Of a stretch of DNA of 64,000 bases, positions 11,390 to 20,680 are shown one piece after another. Within the stretch, counting starts at the first letter, position 1, and the number at the start of each line of letters is the position of its first letter. The DNA is from Streptomyces sp. B3I8 (GTDB taxonomy: Bacteria > Actinomycetota > Actinomycetes > Streptomycetales > Streptomycetaceae), in the NCBI RefSeq assembly GCF_030816915.1, contig NZ_JAUSYN010000002.1, forward strand, positions 2,989,501-3,053,500, read 5' to 3'. Under the pieces are notes generated by a model, which ran no database searches, was not told where the DNA came from, and worked only from the letters and a program-made list of their open reading frames with translations. A program made the translations under genes and the position numbers.

Positions 11390-12661
11390 TCAGCGGCGCA
11401 CCGTCACGGTGATCTCCACACGGCGGTTGCACGCCATGGCCGCGAAGTCCGGTACACCGTCGTGGTACTCAGGGGCGCAGCTGGGCCGGTCGTCGGAGTA
11501 GCCACGGGCGGACGCCACCGCGATCCCACGTTCGGCGAGGGCGGTCCGGACGGCCCGCGCGCGGGCCTGCGAGAGCTGCCTGCCGTGCTGTTCGCTGCCG
11601 CGTGAGTCGGTGTGCCCGGAGACGGCGACCGAGACGGGATCGAGGTCGTCGATGCGCCGGGCGGCGTCGTCCAGCGCGCTGCGTGCCGACGGGGACAGCT
11701 CCGCGCTGTCGGTCGCGAACAGCACGGAGCCGGGCAGGGTGATCGTGGTGGTCCGCCCGGACTGCTGCTCCGCGACGGCCGGGAAGGTCACCTCCGGTTC
11801 CGTCTTGCCGGCCCGGGTGTTCTTTCCGGCCCGGCGGACCTGTGCCGCGGCGGCCACCTCGCAGGAGGAGGCGCCGGTCGCGTCGCACATCTCGCGCCAG
11901 AAGGCGGTCAGCCAGGCGGTCTGCGGAGAGGATGGCGCCTTGCCGTGGGCAGCGTGGCCGATGCCTACCAGGGTCACCTCGGTGCCTGTCAGGTCGGGCA
12001 GTTCGCCCGCCTTGCGACAGCGTGCCGCCGTCGCCTTGATCTCCGCCGTGCCATCGAACCCGGCGGAGCGCAGATCGGTGCAGCCGGTGTTCGTCAACCC
12101 GTCGGTCGCCACGACGATCCGTCGGCGGCCCCCTTTCGGGCCGAGCTGGTCGCCGGCCGCGGCGAGCGCGCCGAGCACATCGGACCGACGGGTGTCCGGC
12201 GCTTCGGCTGCCATCTGCCGCAGCCGTTGGCCCAGACAGGCGCTCCGGCCGTCGCGCCGGTCCTTCTTCAGCGTGCTGTTGCCCTTCACGGGCGTGACGG
12301 GCGCGCGGTCCACCGCCCAGGTGACGGTGGCCCTGGTGCCGTCGAAGCCGGCGGCGGACAGGGTGCCGCCCTCCAATGCCGAGGGCGAGAGGTCCGGAGC
12401 GGCCAGCGCGGTGGCCGCCAGGTCCGGTATCCGGTCGCCCAGCGGGGCGGCCCGGTCCGGCCGGACGGACGGGCTGCGGTCCAGGAGCACGACGGTTCGC
12501 GCCTGAGTGGTGTCCGCGCCGTCGGAGCCGCGGTCCAGCCAGGCGCAGGGTTTCGCTTCGGGCGTGTCGAACGCGCCGCAGCCGCTGCCCGCCAGCACGG
12601 CGGTCAGCGCCGACGCCCCTGCGAGGAGCCGGGTGAGGCGTGATCGGGTCAAGGGACTCAC
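11390..12661 (-). CDS. OmpA-domain lipoprotein with a von Willebrand-like region
   Basis: 423 residues. The GTG at 12661 follows a GGAG site and gives a signal peptide ending LAGSGC (Cys28), a probable lipoprotein anchor. Residues about 45-290 carry features of a vWA-like fold: TVVLLDRSPSVR (an incomplete metal-binding DxSxS), RRRIVVATDGLTN and EVTLVGIGHAAHG. Residues about 310-420 are an OmpA/MotB peptidoglycan-binding domain: SVLFATDSAELS, VSGHTDSRGSEQHGRQLSQARA and CNRRVEITV. In actinomycetes such domains tether a cell-surface protein to the wall. Position upstream of a coiled-coil membrane protein suggests a joint envelope role. Domain calls are secure for OmpA and moderate for vWA. Confidence 0.8.
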   Translation of the reverse strand: MSPLTRSRLTRLLAGASALTAVLAGSGCGAFDTPEAKPCAWLDRGSDGADTTQARTVVLLDRSPSVRPDRAAPLGDRIPDLAATALAAPDLSPSALEGGTLSAAGFDGTRATVTWAVDRAPVTPVKGNSTLKKDRRDGRSACLGQRLRQMAAEAPDTRRSDVLGALAAAGDQLGPKGGRRRIVVATDGLTNTGCTDLRSAGFDGTAEIKATAARCRKAGELPDLTGTEVTLVGIGHAAHGKAPSSPQTAWLTAFWREMCDATGASSCEVAAAAQVRRAGKNTRAGKTEPEVTFPAVAEQQSGRTTTITLPGSVLFATDSAELSPSARSALDDAARRIDDLDPVSVAVSGHTDSRGSEQHGRQLSQARARAVRTALAERGIAVASARGYSDDRPSCAPEYHDGVPDFAAMACNRRVEITVTVRR

Positions 12662-12762
12662 TGGGATCTCCAATACAGGCAAATGCACATTTGTGACTGT
12701 TCTGCGGCGGAAACAGGGGAGTTACTTGAGGTCCTCGTCCATTCCGTGCCAGGAGGTTCTCC

Positions 12763-13302
12763 GTGCACAGTGCCAACGCGTCCGCCGCTAACGACACCGC
12801 GGGAGAAGAGGGAGGTGCCGGTCTCCAGTCGGGGCTGACCGTTTACACGTCACTCCAGGCGTCGGCCCAGTTCGCCGACACCAAGGTGGGCATCCTCGGT
12901 GCCGTTCAAGCGGGGCTGATGGCCATGGCCGTACCGCAGGGCGGCGTGATGCGCGAGGCGTGGGAGAGGGGCGGCCCCGGCGCCTGGGCCACGGCGGTCC
13001 TGCTGTCGCTACAGGTGGCGACGTTCCTGCCCGCCGTGTACTGCGTGGTCCAGGCGCTCCGCCCCCGCTTGGGGCCGCCGCCCACCCCCAACAGGTTCAG
13101 TCTGCCGTTGCTGGCCGTTGCCGACGGCACCGCTCCGCCGGCGGACGAGGCCGGTGAACGCAAGGAGATCTGGCAACTGATCCCGGTGCTCGCCCAGGTG
13201 GTGATGACCAAGCACCGGTACATCGCCAGGGGTGTCGTCTGGACGGGGCTGATGGCAGTGACGGCCGGGCTGTCCTTCCTCACCCGTGCGCTGCCGGCCT
13301 GA
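12763..13302 (+). CDS. PycTM-like (DUF5706) transmembrane protein
   Basis: 179 residues; GTG start with an AGGAGG site seven bases upstream. The N-terminus carries the family mark QFADTKVGILGAVQAGLMAM (about residues 36-55) leading into helix 1; helix 2 is at about 75-98 and helix 3 at about 157-175, with a soluble stretch between. This matches the three-helix Pycsar effector, which in known systems is opened by cyclic CMP or UMP and disrupts the inner membrane during phage infection. No cyclase gene is directly beside it; the nearest cyclase-fold gene is 3 kb away in a convergent operon. It could be an orphan effector, part of a dispersed system, or a family member with another role. Family call good, function inferred. 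Confidence 0.75.
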   Translation: MHSANASAANDTAGEEGGAGLQSGLTVYTSLQASAQFADTKVGILGAVQAGLMAMAVPQGGVMREAWERGGPGAWATAVLLSLQVATFLPAVYCVVQALRPRLGPPPTPNRFSLPLLAVADGTAPPADEAGERKEIWQLIPVLAQVVMTKHRYIARGVVWTGLMAVTAGLSFLTRALPA

Positions 13303-13320: not shown

Positions 13321-14202
13321 TCAGCCCCGGGCCGTCCTGGCCCGGGGCAGCGGCTCCGGGGGCTCGCGACCGGGTCCCAGTTCGCCCGGCAGTGGCAGCC
13401 CGAACAACCGCATGGCGTGGCCGAGTTGACGCTCGTTCGTGGCGACGAACTCGAAGAGGTCCTGCGCCTGGTACGCCTTCGACTGGCCCTCCAGGAGCTT
13501 GACGAACGTCTCGACCTGGTGCTGCCGCTGCCGGAACATCTCGCCGACCTCGGTGGCTGCCTTGTCCGGCTGCTCGGCCAGCAGCACCGCCCATGGCGTC
13601 AGCCAGGCAAGCGCGTCGTCGTTCTGCGACACTCCGGTCAGCCCGCCGGCGAGGAACGCCCGCCACTTCTCGGCGACCTCGCTCAGCAGCCGTACCTGGA
13701 GCGCCGACTTCGCGTACCGGTGCTCGATGTCCTGGAGTTCCAGAGCAGCCTTGCGCTGCTGTTCCAGTACTTCCGGCGCCGGCTGGAACTGGGCGACGGT
13801 GCGACAGTTCACCAGCCCGTTCTCGAAGCATTCTCCCTCCCTCAGGTGGTCGTTGACGGCGCGCTCGGCCTCCTCGGCACGGAACGGCTCGTAGCGGCGG
13901 GCGATGTCACGGATCCGCTCGGTGAGCCGTTCGGGCATGACCGCCTGGTAGCCGTCGAGGGCACGACCGAGCGTCTGCTCGTCGAGGCGCCCCTCGGCGC
14001 ACCAGTCGCAGCGGATCTCGACCTGGAAGCCGAAGCCGTCGCCCTTGGCAGGGGTTTCGAACCTGACGGTCGAGCTGCGATGCACCGACACGGTCTCCGG
14101 TACCTGGACCGCCACGGCTTCGAAGGGCGTGCTGTACACCGGCCGGCCGCCGAACATGCCTCGCAGCCAGGCGAACGGGCCACGACGCGTTGTGCTGGTC
14201 AC
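13321..14202 (-). CDS. Conserved hypothetical protein, third gene of the cyclase/NTPase operon
   Basis: 293 residues. The GTG start overlaps the NTPase stop (GTGA), so the two are translationally coupled. Residues about 15-75 (PVYSTPFEAVAVQVPETVSV, FETPAKGDGFGFQVEIRCDW) form a beta-rich module similar in layout to the start of SPFH/band-7 domains. Residues 75-230 are long helices with coiled-coil spacing (EQQRKAALELQDIEHRYAK); the last 60 residues are again helical. No membrane helix is apparent. The SPFH resemblance is my inference from pattern, not a firm homology. An inverted repeat at its 3' end (13324-13348) lies between this gene and the convergent PycTM-like gene and could terminate either. 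Confidence 0.75.
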   Translation of the reverse strand: MTSTTRRGPFAWLRGMFGGRPVYSTPFEAVAVQVPETVSVHRSSTVRFETPAKGDGFGFQVEIRCDWCAEGRLDEQTLGRALDGYQAVMPERLTERIRDIARRYEPFRAEEAERAVNDHLREGECFENGLVNCRTVAQFQPAPEVLEQQRKAALELQDIEHRYAKSALQVRLLSEVAEKWRAFLAGGLTGVSQNDDALAWLTPWAVLLAEQPDKAATEVGEMFRQRQHQVETFVKLLEGQSKAYQAQDLFEFVATNERQLGHAMRLFGLPLPGELGPGREPPEPLPRARTARG

Positions 14203-16325
14203 ATCGACCACCTCTCCTCCAGAAGTGACTTGACATGCAGGGCTGTGCTGCCGTCGGGGAGTTGGTGATCCCACAGCCGCAGGTGGAACAGCAGCCGCTC
14301 CCGCAGCCGGTCGCCCTCGGCGTCCGGCTCGGGCAACTCGGCGAAGAACCCGGCCACCAGCTCGTCGAGGCCCGGCTCGTCCCCGGCCCGCTCCACCCAC
14401 AGCCGCATGCAGTTCCAGCCACACTGTCGGTGTGCACGGCTGCTGCTGAGCAGGGTCCGCCGGCTCAGCAGCAGCAGATGCTCACGGGGCCCCGGCTCCT
14501 TGAGGAAGGCGGTGACCGCTCGCTCGCCCCGGAACCTGCTGAGCCCCTGGAAGCACTTCGCCGCATCGTCGCGCAGCCAGTGGCGTGACGACGTGGACCA
14601 CTGGGCCAGCCGTTCCAGCACCTGGGCCCGTGATCCGGCCGCGTAGATCTCCCGTACCGCGTCCCAGACGCTCCTCGTCCCCGTCCCGGCGATCCGCTCC
14701 AGACTGTTCAGTGCCTCCGCGGGGAACTGTGCGCCGATGCGCGTGCCGTACGCGACCTTGGCACACGCCTGGAAGTCACGGCGCTGGGACCAGCGCGACA
14801 GCAGGCGCTGAACGCGGGGGGCGAGCAGCGGATCGGTCACCGCCCGTTCCAGCGCCCAGGCCGCGGCGAACCGCCGTCGGTCGGCGTGCTCCCGTGCGGA
14901 CGCCCAGCGGACGAGCAGTTCCTCGCGCACGTAGGCCCAGTCGAAGGTGGCCAGCAGACCGACCGTCTGGGCGGCGGACACCTGGATGTCCTCCTCGCCC
15001 CGGACGACGAGGCCGTCCAGCCACTCCAGCAGGGGTCCACGCGCGCCGCTGTGGTCGTGCCACAGCACCTCCAGGACCGCCTCACCGAGACCGGGCTGGC
15101 TGACCCGCACCAGGCACTCCGGGTGCCTGGACCCGACCGGTTGCCCGGTCCGGTCGGTGAACTCCACGTCGGAGTGGTCGAGCCAGTCCCGTACGCTCTC
15201 CTCGAACAGCGGCATCGCCGGAGCCGAGGAGGGTGAGCGCACCCCGTGCAGCAGCTCGGCGAGCCGGTGGGACTCCCGGCTGACCCGGCTCAGCGTGGTC
15301 CCGTCGAGCACCACGCAGGCCAGCAGGAACGCGCGCGACCACATGGACGGCTGCTGCCTGTTGGCCCCGTCGGCCGCGTCTGTCCCCGGTGGTCCGAGGA
15401 GCCTCACCGCCTTGGCCCGCAGCTCGGCTCCCAGCCCCTGCACGATCTGGTCGACGTCGTCGCCGTCACGCACCCGCTGTGCCAGTTGGCCGGCCAGCCC
15501 AGCGACCTCGGCCATGGACCTGCGCCCGCGCAGGTCCTCCCGCAGGCCCTCGTGCTCCAGCAGTTTGCGGCAGTCCAGCGGCCGGTCGGCGAGCAGTACC
15601 GTCAGGTGCCGCTCCAGCACCTCGTACGGCATCCCGCTCGTCACCTCGTGCTCGACCACATGCCCGGTGAGACTTCCGACCGGCACGTGGTCGTCGACGA
15701 TGATCACCAGTGGGGAACGGCCGTACGTCGCTGCCCGCAGCCGTATGAGCAGCTGAGGGCGCAGTTCGTTCGCCCACTCCGTGCCGTCGCCTTCGATGAC
15801 ATGGCCCCGGCTCGGCTGAAGGCCCCCGTCGTCGGTGACCAGCCGACGCACGCCCGCCTGCGAGTCCAGGACGACGACGCCGGTGTCCATCGCCTGTCGC
15901 ACGGCGAGCAGTGCCATGGTGTAACGCCCGGAGCCGGGGGCCCCACGCAGCACCGCGACCCCGTGTTCGGTCAGGTGGTCGACCAGCGCGGTGTGTGTGG
16001 CCGGTGCGACGTACCGCTCGCGCAGCCGGTCAAGGTCGTCCTCCGGGACCCGGCCGTCGACAGGGTCGACGGCCGGAGTGCCGTAGTAGTTCTTGTAGAT
16101 CGTCCCGGCCGCGTCACCGCTGCCGAAGCCGACGGCTCTCGCCTCGACTCCCCCGTCCACGAGGGTGTGCGCCAGACCGCGTTCCCGCAACTGCCGGATG
16201 TGATCGGCCTGTTCGTCGGACGTCTCCATGCCGGCGGGTGTGGCTGCGGCCTCCTCCTCGTCGACGGACGGCTCAGCCGGAAGCGGGTCCATGTGTTCGT
16301 GCACGGGTTCGGTCTTGTCGTCCAT
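14199..16325 (-). CDS. STAND-like NTPase with N-terminal signalling motif
   Basis: 708 residues. After an acidic start, residues 67-82 read FGSGDAAGTIYKNYYG, almost the same as the last 16 residues of the upstream cyclase-fold protein. A P-loop follows (GAPGSGRYT, about 128-136) and a Walker B-like strand PLVIIVDDH near 206. The remaining 450 residues are helical and repeat-like without a named domain, fitting a sensor region of NLR-type signalling ATPases. The ATG at 16325 lies 13 bases after the cyclase stop and the gene overlaps the next by four bases: one operon. Known NLR-like systems with amyloid motifs carry the motif at the receptor N-terminus and the effector C-terminus, as here. NTPase call is good; role inferred. 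Confidence 0.8.
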   Translation of the reverse strand: MDDKTEPVHEHMDPLPAEPSVDEEEAAATPAGMETSDEQADHIRQLRERGLAHTLVDGGVEARAVGFGSGDAAGTIYKNYYGTPAVDPVDGRVPEDDLDRLRERYVAPATHTALVDHLTEHGVAVLRGAPGSGRYTMALLAVRQAMDTGVVVLDSQAGVRRLVTDDGGLQPSRGHVIEGDGTEWANELRPQLLIRLRAATYGRSPLVIIVDDHVPVGSLTGHVVEHEVTSGMPYEVLERHLTVLLADRPLDCRKLLEHEGLREDLRGRRSMAEVAGLAGQLAQRVRDGDDVDQIVQGLGAELRAKAVRLLGPPGTDAADGANRQQPSMWSRAFLLACVVLDGTTLSRVSRESHRLAELLHGVRSPSSAPAMPLFEESVRDWLDHSDVEFTDRTGQPVGSRHPECLVRVSQPGLGEAVLEVLWHDHSGARGPLLEWLDGLVVRGEEDIQVSAAQTVGLLATFDWAYVREELLVRWASAREHADRRRFAAAWALERAVTDPLLAPRVQRLLSRWSQRRDFQACAKVAYGTRIGAQFPAEALNSLERIAGTGTRSVWDAVREIYAAGSRAQVLERLAQWSTSSRHWLRDDAAKCFQGLSRFRGERAVTAFLKEPGPREHLLLLSRRTLLSSSRAHRQCGWNCMRLWVERAGDEPGLDELVAGFFAELPEPDAEGDRLRERLLFHLRLWDHQLPDGSTALHVKSLLEERWSM

Positions 16326-16338
16326 GTCTCACTCACCA

Positions 16339-17103
16339 TCACCCGTAGTACTTCTTGTGCATGGTCCTGGCCGCGTCGCCGCTGCCGAAGTGGAAGACGC
16401 CGCCCTTGTTCTTCTGCACCACGTTGGTGGGCGCGGGAGCCGCCGCCTCCTCCGTCTCCGGGTCGGCCACGAGCGGCTCCAGTTCCTCCCGGCCGTGCTC
16501 CGGTACGTGGATCCAGCCGTAGCCGCTGAACTCCTTCTGGTGAACGTGCACCCTGACGTACCGGCTCGGATCCAGTCCCTGGCCCTCGCCTCGAAGCCGG
16601 ACCACGTCCTGGTAGATCCGGTCGGAAACGATCACCGCGAGATCGGTCGAGCCGAGAGCCTCCAGCACGTGCTTCAGCTGGGGCGCGTTGAGATAGCGCG
16701 CGACGGAGACGGGGGCGGGCCCGCTGTGGCCGAGAGCGGCTGTGCGGGCCACTCCGAAGTCGATGGCGAGCCGGAGCCTCATCCGCTCCTCTTCGGCGCG
16801 GTTGGCGTTGCGCTCGCCGAGCCGGACGGCCAGGTTCCGTACGAAGCTGCCGAGTACCAGAGGTTCCTGAGTTCCGAGCGGCAGCACGGCGAATTCCTGA
16901 TCGCCCTGCGGTTGGCGTTCCCAGGCCGTGCGGTCCAGGCCGCTGAGTACCGCCGCCTCTTCCAGCACTCGCACCAGGTCGGTTTGGAAGGCCTCCTGGC
17001 TCGGGGTGTCGAGGCGGCTGTACTTCTCCACGTCGGCAGCCATGCACAGATGCCGCGTGATGATTTCCCGTGAATGCGATTGCGATGTCATGGACTCAGT
17101 CAC
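16339..17103 (-). CDS. Class III nucleotide cyclase-fold protein with C-terminal signalling motif
   Basis: 254 residues. The cyclase-homology fold shows LCMAADVEKYSRL (first metal Asp, residue 24) and QGDQEFAVLP (second metal Asp, residue 68), with RLRLAIDFGVA and APVSVARYLNAPQLKHVL later. In that last segment an Arg aligns with the transition-state Arg, but the usual Asn is Ser, so catalysis is uncertain. The C-terminus (about 215-254) is a flexible linker followed by FGSGDAARTMHKKYYG, matched in the downstream NTPase. An alternative ATG at 17091 would give MTSQSHSREIITRH. First gene of the three-gene operon; a Crp/Fnr regulator gene lies 110 bases upstream on the same strand. It may make a cyclic nucleotide or act as a switched-off cyclase fold used as effector. 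Confidence 0.8.
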   Translation of the reverse strand: MTESMTSQSHSREIITRHLCMAADVEKYSRLDTPSQEAFQTDLVRVLEEAAVLSGLDRTAWERQPQGDQEFAVLPLGTQEPLVLGSFVRNLAVRLGERNANRAEEERMRLRLAIDFGVARTAALGHSGPAPVSVARYLNAPQLKHVLEALGSTDLAVIVSDRIYQDVVRLRGEGQGLDPSRYVRVHVHQKEFSGYGWIHVPEHGREELEPLVADPETEEAAAPAPTNVVQKNKGGVFHFGSGDAARTMHKKYYG

Positions 17104-17215: not shown

Positions 17216-17935
17216 TTACGGGACGGCTGCGGGCAGCCGGGCGACTGCCCGCAGCCGGAGCAGGTCGAGGACAGTGGTGCGGCGGTAGCCGGTGGTGATG
17301 AGGTCGTCCCTGCGCAGTTCGGCGAGCGCCTTGTGGATGGTGACCTCCGCCGAGCCGGCGAGCGCGGCCAGTTCCGGCTGGGTGAGGTCGACCCCTATGA
17401 CCAGCCCGCGGGGCACCGGATGACCGTACGAGGTCGCCAGTTCGGCGAGCACGCGGGCAAGCCGTACCTTGACCGGATATCCCCCGAACTCCACTCGCCG
17501 TTGGTTCGACCAGCGCAGCCGCTGCACGACGATCCGGTTGACCGCGCGCGCCGCCTCGGGGTGGAGTTCGAGGAACGCCCGAAGGTCGGACTCTCGGACG
17601 ATACTGGCGACGACCTCTCCGCAGGCGGTGACCGTGGCCGACCTCGGCGCACCGTCGTCCATGGCGGCCATCTCGCCGACTATGTCCCCTCCGACGCGGA
17701 TGGCGAGCAACGACTCGTGGCCGTTGTCCAAGCGAGCGGTGACCTTGACGAATCCGGAGCGCAGAAGAATCACATGGTTGGAGAAGTCGCCCTCGCGGAG
17801 CAGGATGTCCTCGGGCAGGTAGCGGCAGCGGGTACCGATCCGGAGCAGCTCGATACGGACGGGTTCCGACAGGCCACCGAGGAAGCTGCGGGCGGGCCAC
17901 CCTTCGAGGCCCTGGGATGGAAACTGCGGCGTCAA
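17216..17935 (-). CDS. Crp/Fnr-family transcription regulator
   Basis: 239 residues. A cyclic-nucleotide-binding beta barrel fills about residues 20-140 (LLRIGTRCRYLPEDILLREGD, VGGDIVGEMAAMDDGAPRSA with the FGE-like GEMA and a following RSA, as in cNMP binders), then a dimer helix and winged helix (VDLTQPELAALAGSAEVTIHKALAELR). The TTG at 17935 is chosen because GGAGAGGAG lies five bases before it and the frame upstream shows no homology. The barrel retains the E...RSA signature, so it may sense cAMP-like ligands. Its place directly upstream of a cyclase-fold gene suggests a functional link. Confidence 0.85.
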   Translation of the reverse strand: MTPQFPSQGLEGWPARSFLGGLSEPVRIELLRIGTRCRYLPEDILLREGDFSNHVILLRSGFVKVTARLDNGHESLLAIRVGGDIVGEMAAMDDGAPRSATVTACGEVVASIVRESDLRAFLELHPEAARAVNRIVVQRLRWSNQRRVEFGGYPVKVRLARVLAELATSYGHPVPRGLVIGVDLTQPELAALAGSAEVTIHKALAELRRDDLITTGYRRTTVLDLLRLRAVARLPAAVP

Positions 17936-18189: not shown

Positions 18190-18360
18190 CGCCGCCATGC
18201 CCGCGGGCCTGCCCGCAGAACAGCACCAGTGCGCGCGGAGCCGTGCGTTGCTCCCCTTCGAAACCCTCGAACCACCTGACGCCCTCGTCCGCAGGTCTCA
18301 GCCCCTGTGCGAGTTCGTTGAGGATCACCTCGTGTGCGTACGGCACAGGCTTCCACTCCC
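18190..18360 (-). pseudogene. DUF5958-like fragment
   Basis: The minus strand reads VILNELAQGLRPADEGVRWF, EGFEGEQRTAPRALVLFCGQ, the start of a small Streptomyces family (DUF5958). The rest of that protein does not follow in any frame, so this is a truncated remnant. The family name is from memory of its N-terminal signature and is only moderately certain. Confidence 0.45.
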
Positions 18361-18862
18361 GCGGTCCGGACCGACGGTACGCGCACGGTACCCCGCAGGC
18401 AGCACGGTTTTCCGCGCCCTGACGGCGCAGCCACCTGACGCAAGCAGGCCTCTCCGGGGCGAAGCCGCGCGGCAGGCCTTCCGGGAGGCCCGCGTTCCAC
18501 GAGTGCGTGTCCCGCTGAGTGACAGCGCGGACGAACAGCGGCAGACAAGCACAGATTCCAGTGGGCCGTTCCACCAGGTGAGAGCCGGATCAGCCCAAGG
18601 TCATGCGCCCGCCCAGGTCGCCTCTGGACGAAAGGTTTCAAAGTTCAAGGGTCCGCGACGGCGGCGGCGCAATGCTCGCTCCGCGAGTCCGGTACCTCGC
18701 TTGGTCAGGTCTGGGTGGGCATGAAGCCGCTGCGGGTGGTGCCCGAGGACAGCAGGGCGGGCCAGTCGAGTGTCTCGGGCAGGTGGTCGAGACACAGGAC
18801 GACCGCTCCGCCGGCTTGCTCGGCATCCACGCAACAGTCGCCCATGTCCCTCGGTGCCCCGA

Positions 18863-18898
18863 GGGCGCGACGGTGCTCGTGGTCGAATCACGTGGATG
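18863..18898 (+). repeat. 36-base repeat, decayed copy of NfeD-like coding sequence
   Basis: Identical over 36 bases to 19370-19405, inside the intact NfeD-like gene, and in the frame that reads GATVLVVESRG. The flanks differ, so a small duplication (or remnant of a paralogue) lies 0.5 kb upstream of the gene. Confidence 0.85.
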
Positions 18899-19226
18899 GG
18901 CATGCGTTCCCGGGACTGCCCAGGTGAGGAACACAGCCAGGAAGATGAGAATGATCAGAGCATGTGCACCCCAAGGCGCCGGAGCCTTCGGTGTCCGAGA
19001 ACATCGACCAGTCTGGCGGGCGGACGTTCGAGCGGGGCGTCCGTCTCTCCGGGTGCCTCGTCACCGCCGGGGCGGCTGTCGACGGGTGGGGAGTCGGGGT
19101 GCCGTGGCGCGTCGTGGGAAGTGGGTGCGGTCCGGTGGTGCAGACCGGGGGCTCCTGGGCGTTGGGTCCCGGGCGGACTGGGGCTATCGTCGGGATCAGA
19201 GGGCCAGGCGAGGAGGACCGCCGGTG

Positions 19227-19478
19227 ATGCCGCAGGACGAGGCCGTGATCGGCTGCACGGGGAAGGTACTCATCGGAACTCGCGGTTCCGCGGGCCCCGG
19301 CGAGATCCTGGTGCGGGTAAGAGGGGGTTCCGAGACGTTCCTGGCCTGGTCGGAGAGCCCCTTGTCCGCGGGCGCGACGGTGCTCGTGGTCGAATCACGT
19401 GGATGCCGCGAGGTGGGCGTCATCGAGTGGGTGGATCCATTGGACGCGCTCGGCGAGAGAACCGCCGACGCCGGCTGA
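19227..19478 (+). CDS. NfeD-like small protein, partner of flotillin
   Basis: 83 residues (MPQDEAVIGCTGKVLIGTRG, SAGPGEILVRVRGGSETFLA, SPLSAGATVLVVESRGCREV), an OB-fold resembling the soluble C-terminal domain of NfeD proteins; the usual membrane part is absent. GAGGAGGA lies nine bases before the ATG; a GTG one codon earlier is also possible. It ends 11 bases before the flotillin gene, the standard NfeD-flotillin pairing, in which the small protein is thought to help assemble flotillin membrane domains. Confidence 0.85.
   Translation: MPQDEAVIGCTGKVLIGTRGSAGPGEILVRVRGGSETFLAWSESPLSAGATVLVVESRGCREVGVIEWVDPLDALGERTADAG
19370..19405 (+). repeat. 36-base repeat, copy inside the NfeD-like gene
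   Basis: Partner of 18863-18898. Confidence 0.85.
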
Positions 19479-19489
19479 GGAGTACAGGC

Positions 19490-20680
19490 ATGTTCGGTTA
19501 CCGCGTCCCCGCACCCGACGAGGCGATGTTGATCTCGGGCGGCAGGCGGGGACTGGGGGGCGCGCCGTTCCGAGTGGTGACAGGGCACGGGAAGTTCGTG
19601 CTTCCGGTCTTCCGGAAGGTCAGGTTCCTCACCCTGTCGATGTGCGAGTCCGAGGTCACCGAGACGTGTGTGACCAAGCAGGGCATCGCGTTGCACGTCC
19701 GCGCGGTCATCGCCTTCAAGGTCGGCAACGACCACGAAAGCATCATCAACGCGGGTCAGCGCTTCCTGTCCGACCAGGATCAGATGTCGGTGCTCACCGG
19801 CCGGATCTTCGCCGGGCATCTGCGGGCCATCATCGGTTCGATGACGGTCGAGGAGATCGTCACCGAGCGGCAGAAGCTCGCCGCGGAGGTCCTGGACACC
19901 TCCAAGACGGAGATGGCGAAGATCGGCCTGACCGTCGACTCCCTCCAGATCCAGTCGATCGACGACGGTGACACCGGCTACATCGACGCGATGTCGGCCC
20001 CGCACAAGGCCGCCATCCAGCGGCAGGCCCAGATCGCCCAGGCACAGGCCACCCAGGCCGCGGCCCAGGCGGAGCAGGCGGCGGCCCGTGAGCAGGCCGA
20101 GTACGCCCGGCAGACCGCCATCGTCCAGGCCGAGTACTCGGCCGAGGTGGACCGTGCCCAGGCGCAGGCCGCGCAGGCCGGACCGCTGGCGCAGGCACAC
20201 GCCCAGCAGGAGGTGCTCGCCGTCCAGACGGAGCTGGCGCAGCGTCAGGCGCGTTTGCGGCAGCAGCAGTTGGTGGCCGAGGTCGTCAAGCCCGCCGAGG
20301 CCGAGGCCGAGCGGGTCAGGATACTCGCGGCCGCCGAGGCGCAGCGGATGAAGATCCAGGCGGAGGCGGCGGCCTCGTACGACCGGGTCGCGCTCGACCG
20401 GATGCTGATCGACCAGCTCCCGCAGATCGTCAAGGAGGCCGCCGGTGGCCTCGCCGGCGCCAACGTCAATGTCCTCAACGGCGCGGACGGCCTCGGTGAG
20501 ATCGCCGCCGGCCTGGTGTCCCAGGGCCTGACGATCCTCGACTCGGTCCGGCAGAACCTGAGCGGCCAGGATGCCGACGGCCACCGCCCCGGCTCCGGGG
20601 AGGGCGAGGACAGCGGCCTGCGCCAGCTGCCCTTCGGCAAGGAGCGGGCACCGAGGGACGGTCGGGTGGACGTCGACTAG
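19490..20680 (+). CDS. Flotillin-family SPFH protein
   Basis: 396 residues. An SPFH/band-7 domain occupies about residues 15-180 (EAMLISGGRRG, VVTGHGKFVLPVFRKV, TKQGIALHVRAVIAFKVGND, GHLRAIIGSMTVEEIVTERQ). A long flotillin coiled coil follows, rich in Ala/Gln/Glu repeats (AQAQATQAAAQAEQAAARE, VEVVKPAEAE-like segments), then IKEAAGG-type end and an acidic tail. Flotillins assemble detergent-resistant membrane domains and scaffold envelope and stress complexes. Start ATG follows GAGGAG by seven bases. Cotranscribed with the NfeD-like gene. Confidence 0.95.
   Translation: MFGYRVPAPDEAMLISGGRRGLGGAPFRVVTGHGKFVLPVFRKVRFLTLSMCESEVTETCVTKQGIALHVRAVIAFKVGNDHESIINAGQRFLSDQDQMSVLTGRIFAGHLRAIIGSMTVEEIVTERQKLAAEVLDTSKTEMAKIGLTVDSLQIQSIDDGDTGYIDAMSAPHKAAIQRQAQIAQAQATQAAAQAEQAAAREQAEYARQTAIVQAEYSAEVDRAQAQAAQAGPLAQAHAQQEVLAVQTELAQRQARLRQQQLVAEVVKPAEAEAERVRILAAAEAQRMKIQAEAAASYDRVALDRMLIDQLPQIVKEAAGGLAGANVNVLNGADGLGEIAAGLVSQGLTILDSVRQNLSGQDADGHRPGSGEGEDSGLRQLPFGKERAPRDGRVDVD

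Follow-up and report, generated by a model that had tools for sequence, protein, structure and literature searches.

A 64,000-nucleotide stretch of the Streptomyces sp. B3I8 genome (NZ_JAUSYN010000002.1, positions 2,989,501 to 3,053,500; hereafter the window) encodes a class III nucleotidyl cyclase-fold protein that ends in a 16-residue motif, and the NTPase encoded by the next gene bears the same motif ahead of its P-loop. Other cyclase subfamilies carry different tails, which tend to match their own downstream protein: motif sequences vary between loci and agree inside a locus. These matched, differently spelled tags suggest that a sensor switches on an enzyme through the tag. The arrangement is real, widespread and diversified. 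The explanation we favour, with slightly more than even confidence, is that the NTPase acts as sensor and the cyclase as effector, coupled by a homotypic short motif, and that a cyclic nucleotide then drives two products encoded alongside, a PycTM-like membrane protein and a Crp-type regulator. The features at the centre of the argument are these:

16339 to 17103, minus strand: class III nucleotidyl cyclase-fold protein of 254 residues, with a C-terminal tail predicted to be disordered.

16342 to 16389, minus strand: motif copy 1, FGSGDAARTMHKKYYG, at the cyclase C-terminus (from the sequence, homologues and motif profile).

14199 to 16325, minus strand: NLR-like NTPase of 708 residues (from an AlphaFold model, a sub-cut-off nSTAND3 match and VIA folds).

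16080 to 16127, minus strand: motif copy 2, FGSGDAAGTIYKNYYG, residues 67-82 of the NTPase (from the sequence, homologues and motif profile).

15918 to 15944, minus strand: Walker A of the NTPase, GAPGSGRYT, residues 128-136, with Arg for Lys (from alignment).

The cyclase copy occupies residues 239-254, the last 16 of the protein, and the NTPase copy lies 45 residues ahead of the Walker A. The two agree at 12 of 16 residues and 41 of 48 nucleotides, both lie in regions predicted to be disordered, and no further copy turned up when all six frames of the window were searched with a regular expression. A first-pass annotation of this DNA had reported the motif pair, the gene order and a third gene whose start is coupled to the NTPase stop, and all of these hold (GTG at 14202, NTPase stop at 14199). 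The layout it drew, with the motif at the effector C-terminus and the NTPase N-terminus, is likewise confirmed, and recurs with other motifs elsewhere.

The motif is well conserved among orthologues. A homologue search with the cyclase found 187 proteins, and among the best 120 of these the motif, in recognisable form, ends the 39 orthologous cyclases (P0001-P0039), while the tails of the remaining 81 differ from it. Across the 39, the G-x-G-D of the motif is 100% conserved and its F, A and A 95-97%, compared with a mean of 62% for the linker block before it. A clear motif is present in 38 of 41 NTPase homologues; it is diverged in two (P0160 and P0161, the latter from Embleya), and one (P0144) is a piece that has no N-terminus. 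Mean conservation over 39 NTPases is 0.82 in the motif block, 0.55 before it and 0.67 after it. A profile of the motif, run over 199 Streptomyces genomes, gave six full-length matches (E < 1e-11) in three genomes, each with one full motif at the cyclase C-terminus and one at the N-terminus of the adjacent NTPase; there was no full motif elsewhere in the 199 genomes, the next best match being partial (E = 0.025). Two of the three genomes were already in the profile (that of the window, and G247, identical to L005) and the third (G428) is an orthologue with DNA 95% identical to L003, so the informative part of this result, which favours the first-pass annotation, is the absence of the motif elsewhere. 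A chance or strain-specific motif is ruled out by the homologues, the conservation and the profile search together.

For the family at large, each cyclase tail (last 50 residues) was compared with the N-terminus (first 230 residues) of the downstream gene product of its own and of foreign loci. To be testable, a locus needed a tail and, downstream on the same strand, a gene encoding 500 residues or more; each tail cluster contributed one representative. The first set held 61 cyclase loci including the window, 42 of them testable and falling into 27 tail clusters. The summed score of the 27 representatives was 1333, compared with 845 for permuted pairs (standard deviation 40), and none of 100,000 permutations scored as high. 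Pitted against the other clusters, the own partner came out on top for 24 of the 42 loci; with the comparison confined to representatives, it did so for 14 of 27. Seven controls (the NTPase middle, the NTPase end, the +2 gene, the start and the end of the -1 gene, the cyclase N-terminus and the reversed tail) all stayed within z = -2.0 to 1.6, which rules out similarity as a property of whole proteins or of composition.

A second set of 40 loci came from a class-wide search, with 24 loci outside Streptomyces; 33 were usable, in 26 clusters. The 26 representatives scored 1337, compared with 789 when permuted (standard deviation 39), again with 0 of 100,000 permutations as high. Top rank went to the own partner in 22 of the 33; for the 18 usable loci from other genera the figure was 11. 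This test used a domain-only cyclase profile, trimmed the starts and took 260 residues, not 300, from the downstream open reading frame (ORF); these settings were altered after an earlier run had been seen, in which the profile covered the tails and 30 of the 40 loci dropped out; that run, with eight representatives, gave 298 compared with 214 permuted (standard deviation 21), and 100 of 100,000 permutations were as high. The second set partly overlaps the first: L175 and L005 are identical DNA, and the two sets have some motif families in common.

The pairs are diverse. One locus (L013) matches NVNNGQANMGDNGTI with NVNHGFANQGDNGTI, and another (L156) matches GGASHRADGHGIVNAPGRDQ with GGASHRATDGGTVNAAGRDQ. 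In four loci (L162, L165, L181, L185) both partners have a core that we take to be like that of RHIM and BASS3, for example QVVQAGTVNGG and QVVSADSIIGG, one in each partner of L165. The Pfam RHIM model matched none of 10 proteins from the RHIM-like pairs, so this likeness stays a resemblance.

The class III cyclase fold proposed for the effector is borne out by structure and by residue comparison. The metal-binding Asp residues D24 and D68 and the Arg R136 are invariant in 38 of 38 cyclases, and K190 is kept in 35 of them. The fold, metal Asp, Arg and Lys are those of Ma1120, Rv1264 and other class III adenylyl and guanylyl cyclases, and the protein probably makes a small alarm molecule. As to which one, the sequences of the cyclases fall into no clear nucleotide-specificity class: the Lys that is mutated in a specificity mutant of Ma1120 aligns with Gln in the window cyclase (Q in 16, E in 11 and A in 9 of 38), and in fold the window cyclase matches other class III cyclases at least as well as the uridylate cyclase 8jsz (E 2e-6, rank 35). 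Pfam gave a single match over the 38 cyclases, an implausible one. One subgroup of about 360 residues (L008, P0042, P0043, P0045-P0049) has an extra C-terminal part, relatives of which many Streptomyces genomes encode in open frames of their own, about 140-290 codons long.

The NTPase consists of a disordered stretch (residues 1-88), an AAA/STAND-like NTPase domain (about 90-310) and HEAT-like repeats (about 410-708); its AlphaFold model has a mean pLDDT of 76.9 and a pTM of 0.60. The nSTAND3 match of the window protein is below the cut-off (E 4e-4), and among its relatives nSTAND3 is found at E ≤ 0.01 in 15 of 32 and HEAT-type repeats in a few. VIA gave AAA+ and HEAT-type folds; no chain named STAND is among the best 50 VIA rows for this protein, which excludes nothing. 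Foldseek gave weak matches to AVAST5 (E 0.004) and to a STAND protein (E 0.009). The Arg that replaces the Walker A Lys (R134) is invariant in 32 of 32 aligned relatives, an unusual state where the remaining P-loop is kept; the Lys is present in some other partner NTPases (e.g. L067, L101, L104). The first-pass description of an NLR-like P-loop ATPase has the AAA+ and HEAT-type folds in its favour, and is weakened by the sub-threshold nSTAND3 match and by the Arg.

Four further genes of the window lie close to the pair:

17216 to 17917, minus strand: Crp-family regulator with a cyclic nucleoside monophosphate (cNMP)-binding domain (PF00027, E 7e-17) and HTH_Crp (PF13545, E 1e-12).

13321 to 14202, minus strand: the third gene, encoding 293 residues, its start coupled to the NTPase stop; a homologue recurs at other loci.

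12763 to 13302, plus strand: PycTM-like membrane protein (Pycsar effector family) of 179 residues (PADLOC PycTM, E 4.7e-7).

11390 to 12688, minus strand: OmpA-domain protein (PF00691, E 2e-13), of doubtful membership in the unit.

The Crp-family gene is directly upstream of the cyclase on the same strand, with an uncertain start (its ORF opens at 18574), and the PycTM-like gene is convergent with the operon, 18 bp from the third gene. Iterated profiles were used to count neighbours no more than 5 kb from the cyclase at 75 loci (74 distinct, L057 being the same DNA as L007): a Crp-type gene is present at 66, a PycTM-like gene at 39 and a third-gene homologue at 40. The corresponding numbers for the second set of 40 loci are 32, 16 and 22. 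Five close orthologous loci (L002-L006) all keep the cyclase, the NTPase, the third gene and the convergent PycTM. The recurrence of the Crp-type and PycTM-like genes rules out the three-gene unit of the first-pass annotation, which was incomplete; the recurring set comprises the Crp regulator, cyclase, NTPase, third gene and PycTM. These two neighbours also make a cyclic-nucleotide output, as first suggested, more likely. Association with PycTM is seen from the other side as well: among above-cut-off Pfam PycTM genes in 41 Streptomyces genomes, 15 of 30 have a cyclase of this family no more than 6 kb away, where a rough estimate expects about 0.06. PF18967 is found at E ≤ 0.05 in 30 of 33 aligned PycTM-like relatives, the window protein included (best 3e-23).

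Some loci show further peculiarities: (i) The PycTM-like gene of L003 (13599-15498) is split over several reading frames, so it is either dispensable there or affected by an assembly error. (ii) The long ORF ahead of the Crp-type gene has, at about 18200-18335 on the minus strand of the window, a short DUF5958 match below the cut-off (E 3e-4), perhaps a gene remnant. (iii) The OmpA-domain protein adjoins the unit in L002-L006, and beyond these the search of the loci recovered it in L157 (distant) and L175 (the DNA of L005) alone; it may be a further member of the unit or reflect shared synteny. (iv) Slightly past the Crp-type gene, at 18770-20680 on the plus strand, is a Band 7 (SPFH) protein that weakly matches Flotillin and was refound among the loci searched only in L106, distantly.

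Domain searches with the third-gene protein and its relatives gave nothing convincing, with a weak Band 7/SPFH hint from Pfam in 2 of 26 relatives. This gene matters to how the tags may act, since both tagged proteins might bind the same third protein, for example its product, or each other, as soluble partners with no amyloid and no templating. We think such a shared docking tag rather unlikely. It would suit the recurrence of the third gene, the charged and glycine-rich nature of the window motif, and a Pfam RHIM model that finds no match even in RHIM-like pairs. However, matched tails also occur where no third-gene homologue was found (e.g. L105, L165, L185), and with so many unrelated motifs matching within pairs, homotypic contact is simpler than the co-evolution of two proteins with a third. 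Homotypic coupling of the NTPase and the cyclase is well supported. That the NTPase recruits the cyclase we infer strongly, and that it does so by amyloid templating more weakly, by analogy with BASS and RHIM.

In the favoured mechanism, a trigger, perhaps a phage, would be sensed by the NTPase, which would oligomerise and present its N-terminal motifs. These would draw in the matching cyclase tails and probably act on them as amyloid-type templates. Class III cyclases have their active site at the dimer interface and need two protomers, so gathering tails on an activated NTPase could be a sufficient switch: the gathered tails would assemble active cyclase dimers and start cyclic-nucleotide synthesis. 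The PycTM-like membrane protein would respond to the messenger by damaging the membrane or arresting growth, and the Crp-type regulator by acting on transcription.

Several results weigh against this reading, and some of them concern the pairing itself. The own partner was not top-ranked in 18 of 42 loci of the first set and 11 of 33 of the second, and at least two of the top ranks (L067, L078) arise from low-complexity linkers. No suitable tail or downstream gene was present in 19 of 61 and 7 of 40 loci, which were dropped, and a scan of whole loci recovered a clear match in only some of the dropped ones. Over the 19 loci so scanned, most of them with no clear partner, the match was clear in L009, in the next ORF downstream, and in L069, at a distance of about 3 kb on the opposite strand, and weaker in L010 and L061, and there was no convincing match for others such as L080, L084 and L100.

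Codon usage raises a further objection. At residues shared by the two motif copies, 263 of 365 codons are identical over 25 pairs, where codon usage predicts 205 (standard deviation 8.4), and identity is nearly complete in L094 (24 of 25 identical residues), L098 (16 of 16) and L115 (18 of 20); in these three, the copies look as if one had recently been copied from the other. The excess implies that in some loci, most strongly L094 and L098, one copy was probably derived from the other by copying or gene conversion. The motif similarity could on that account be a functionless trace of local DNA duplication or gene conversion, which we judge very improbable: the flanking linkers vary, whereas the motif core hardly changes over the 39 cyclases and is strongly conserved in the NTPases, and the matching rule recurs with many different motifs. 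Because the motif is conserved across orthologues, we read codon-level copying between neighbours as a way in which matched pairs arise and not as a sign that they have no function.

The remaining objections concern chemistry and family membership. With Arg in the Walker A, hydrolysis of NTP by the NTPase is doubtful. PADLOC PycC does not match the window cyclase (one of 38 relatives matches, at E 0.0085), and the PycTM-like protein of the window reaches only E 0.039 with PF18967, below the cut-off. Class III cyclases normally use a transition-state Asn and an Arg; unlike the class III adenylyl and guanylyl cyclases, which have the usual Asn, the window cyclase has Val132 at this position, and Asn is present in 14 of 38 cyclases. 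The cyclase might then be weak or dead, a nucleotide-binding regulator of the NTPase, with Crp and PycTM answering some other signal. Besides Val132, there is precedent for this in the inactive cNMP cyclase domains reported from related conflict systems, in the accessible part of that work (PMC7159879). Set against it are the full retention of the metal Asp pair and the Arg across the 38 cyclases and the near-complete retention of the Lys, and we consider a weak or dead enzyme improbable.

Another explanation accepts the mechanism we favour, with which it is compatible, and differs as to purpose: the system would serve development or stress signalling in filamentous actinomycetes, not phage defence. 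We regard this as a serious, if unlikely, possibility. A transcription factor is linked to the cyclase at most loci (the 66 of 75 above), even distant relatives of the cyclase are found in only 5 of 72,556 plasmid records, and of the four window proteins run against PADLOC only the PycTM-like one has a good match. Yet the distribution is patchy, with the full motif in 3 of 199 Streptomyces genomes, the motifs diversify and a Pycsar-type effector is present; these three traits are typical of conflict systems.

How Pycsar-type cyclases are activated is, to our knowledge, an open question, and a matched NTPase-cyclase tag offers a concrete and testable answer. More tentatively, and with rather less than even confidence, amyloid-type templating may be a general activation switch for actinomycete cyclases, with dozens of locus-specific NTPase motifs, each fitted to its own cyclase tail, and a soluble second-messenger alarm, set off by a single templating event and read by a Pycsar-type membrane effector and Crp. 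If true, this would join amyloid signalosomes to cyclic-nucleotide immunity and provide the activation step for PycC-like cyclases. A cyclase output would also amplify, each activation yielding many messenger molecules, which is not how bacterial amyloid pairs are described in the accessible parts of the papers on them. The large set of diversified matched pairs is, moreover, a natural experiment in motif specificity.

Three known systems invite comparison. The first are the bacterial amyloid signalling pairs, of which BASS 1-10, according to the accessible parts of the literature, link NLRs to BELL-domain effectors (PMC7889193, PMC8086366, PMC12261475, PMC9815663). They share with the window a short motif common to the effector C-terminus and the NLR-like N-terminus of adjacent genes, and with its family an actinobacterial distribution and many motif families. 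The effectors named in the review, as far as accessible, are BELL, CHAT and TIR (PMC7889193), whereas that of the window is a class III cyclase, and the window unit also includes PycTM, the third gene and the Crp regulator. In their accessible main texts, the same four papers never use the word cyclase. Pycsar, from the accessible part of its description, consists of a cyclase plus a receptor protein, PycC with PycTM or PycTIR (PMC11224242). There too a class III cyclase that retains the metal Asp residues is encoded beside a membrane protein of the PycTM family, but the window cyclase does not match the PycC profile, and the window unit has in addition a Crp regulator and an NTPase that bears the matched motif.

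The closest conceptual precedent is the effector-associated domain (EAD) principle and the iSTAND2 systems. In the accessible parts of Kaur et al. 2020/2021, small effector-associated domains link cNMP cyclases to STAND-like modules, and some of these conflict systems have a CRP-like regulator close by (PMC7159879, PMC8195603). There, as in the window, cNMP cyclases go with a homotypic adaptor that is also at the STAND N-terminus. Those adaptors, as described in the same accessible parts, are small domains, alpha-helical in 9 of 12, within other gene sets such as MoxR-vWA, whereas the adaptor of the window type is a disordered motif of about 16-25 residues. The combination of a matched-tag NTPase-cyclase pair with Pycsar-type genes was not found among the literature matches listed, in a coverage that leaves out most subscription journals. 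With an effector type unlike those of BASS and a cyclase that falls short of the PycC profile, the unit is not simply a member of either system, though it would operate in the manner of both; we read the arrangement as one that joins two known kinds, the bacterial amyloid signalling pairs and Pycsar.

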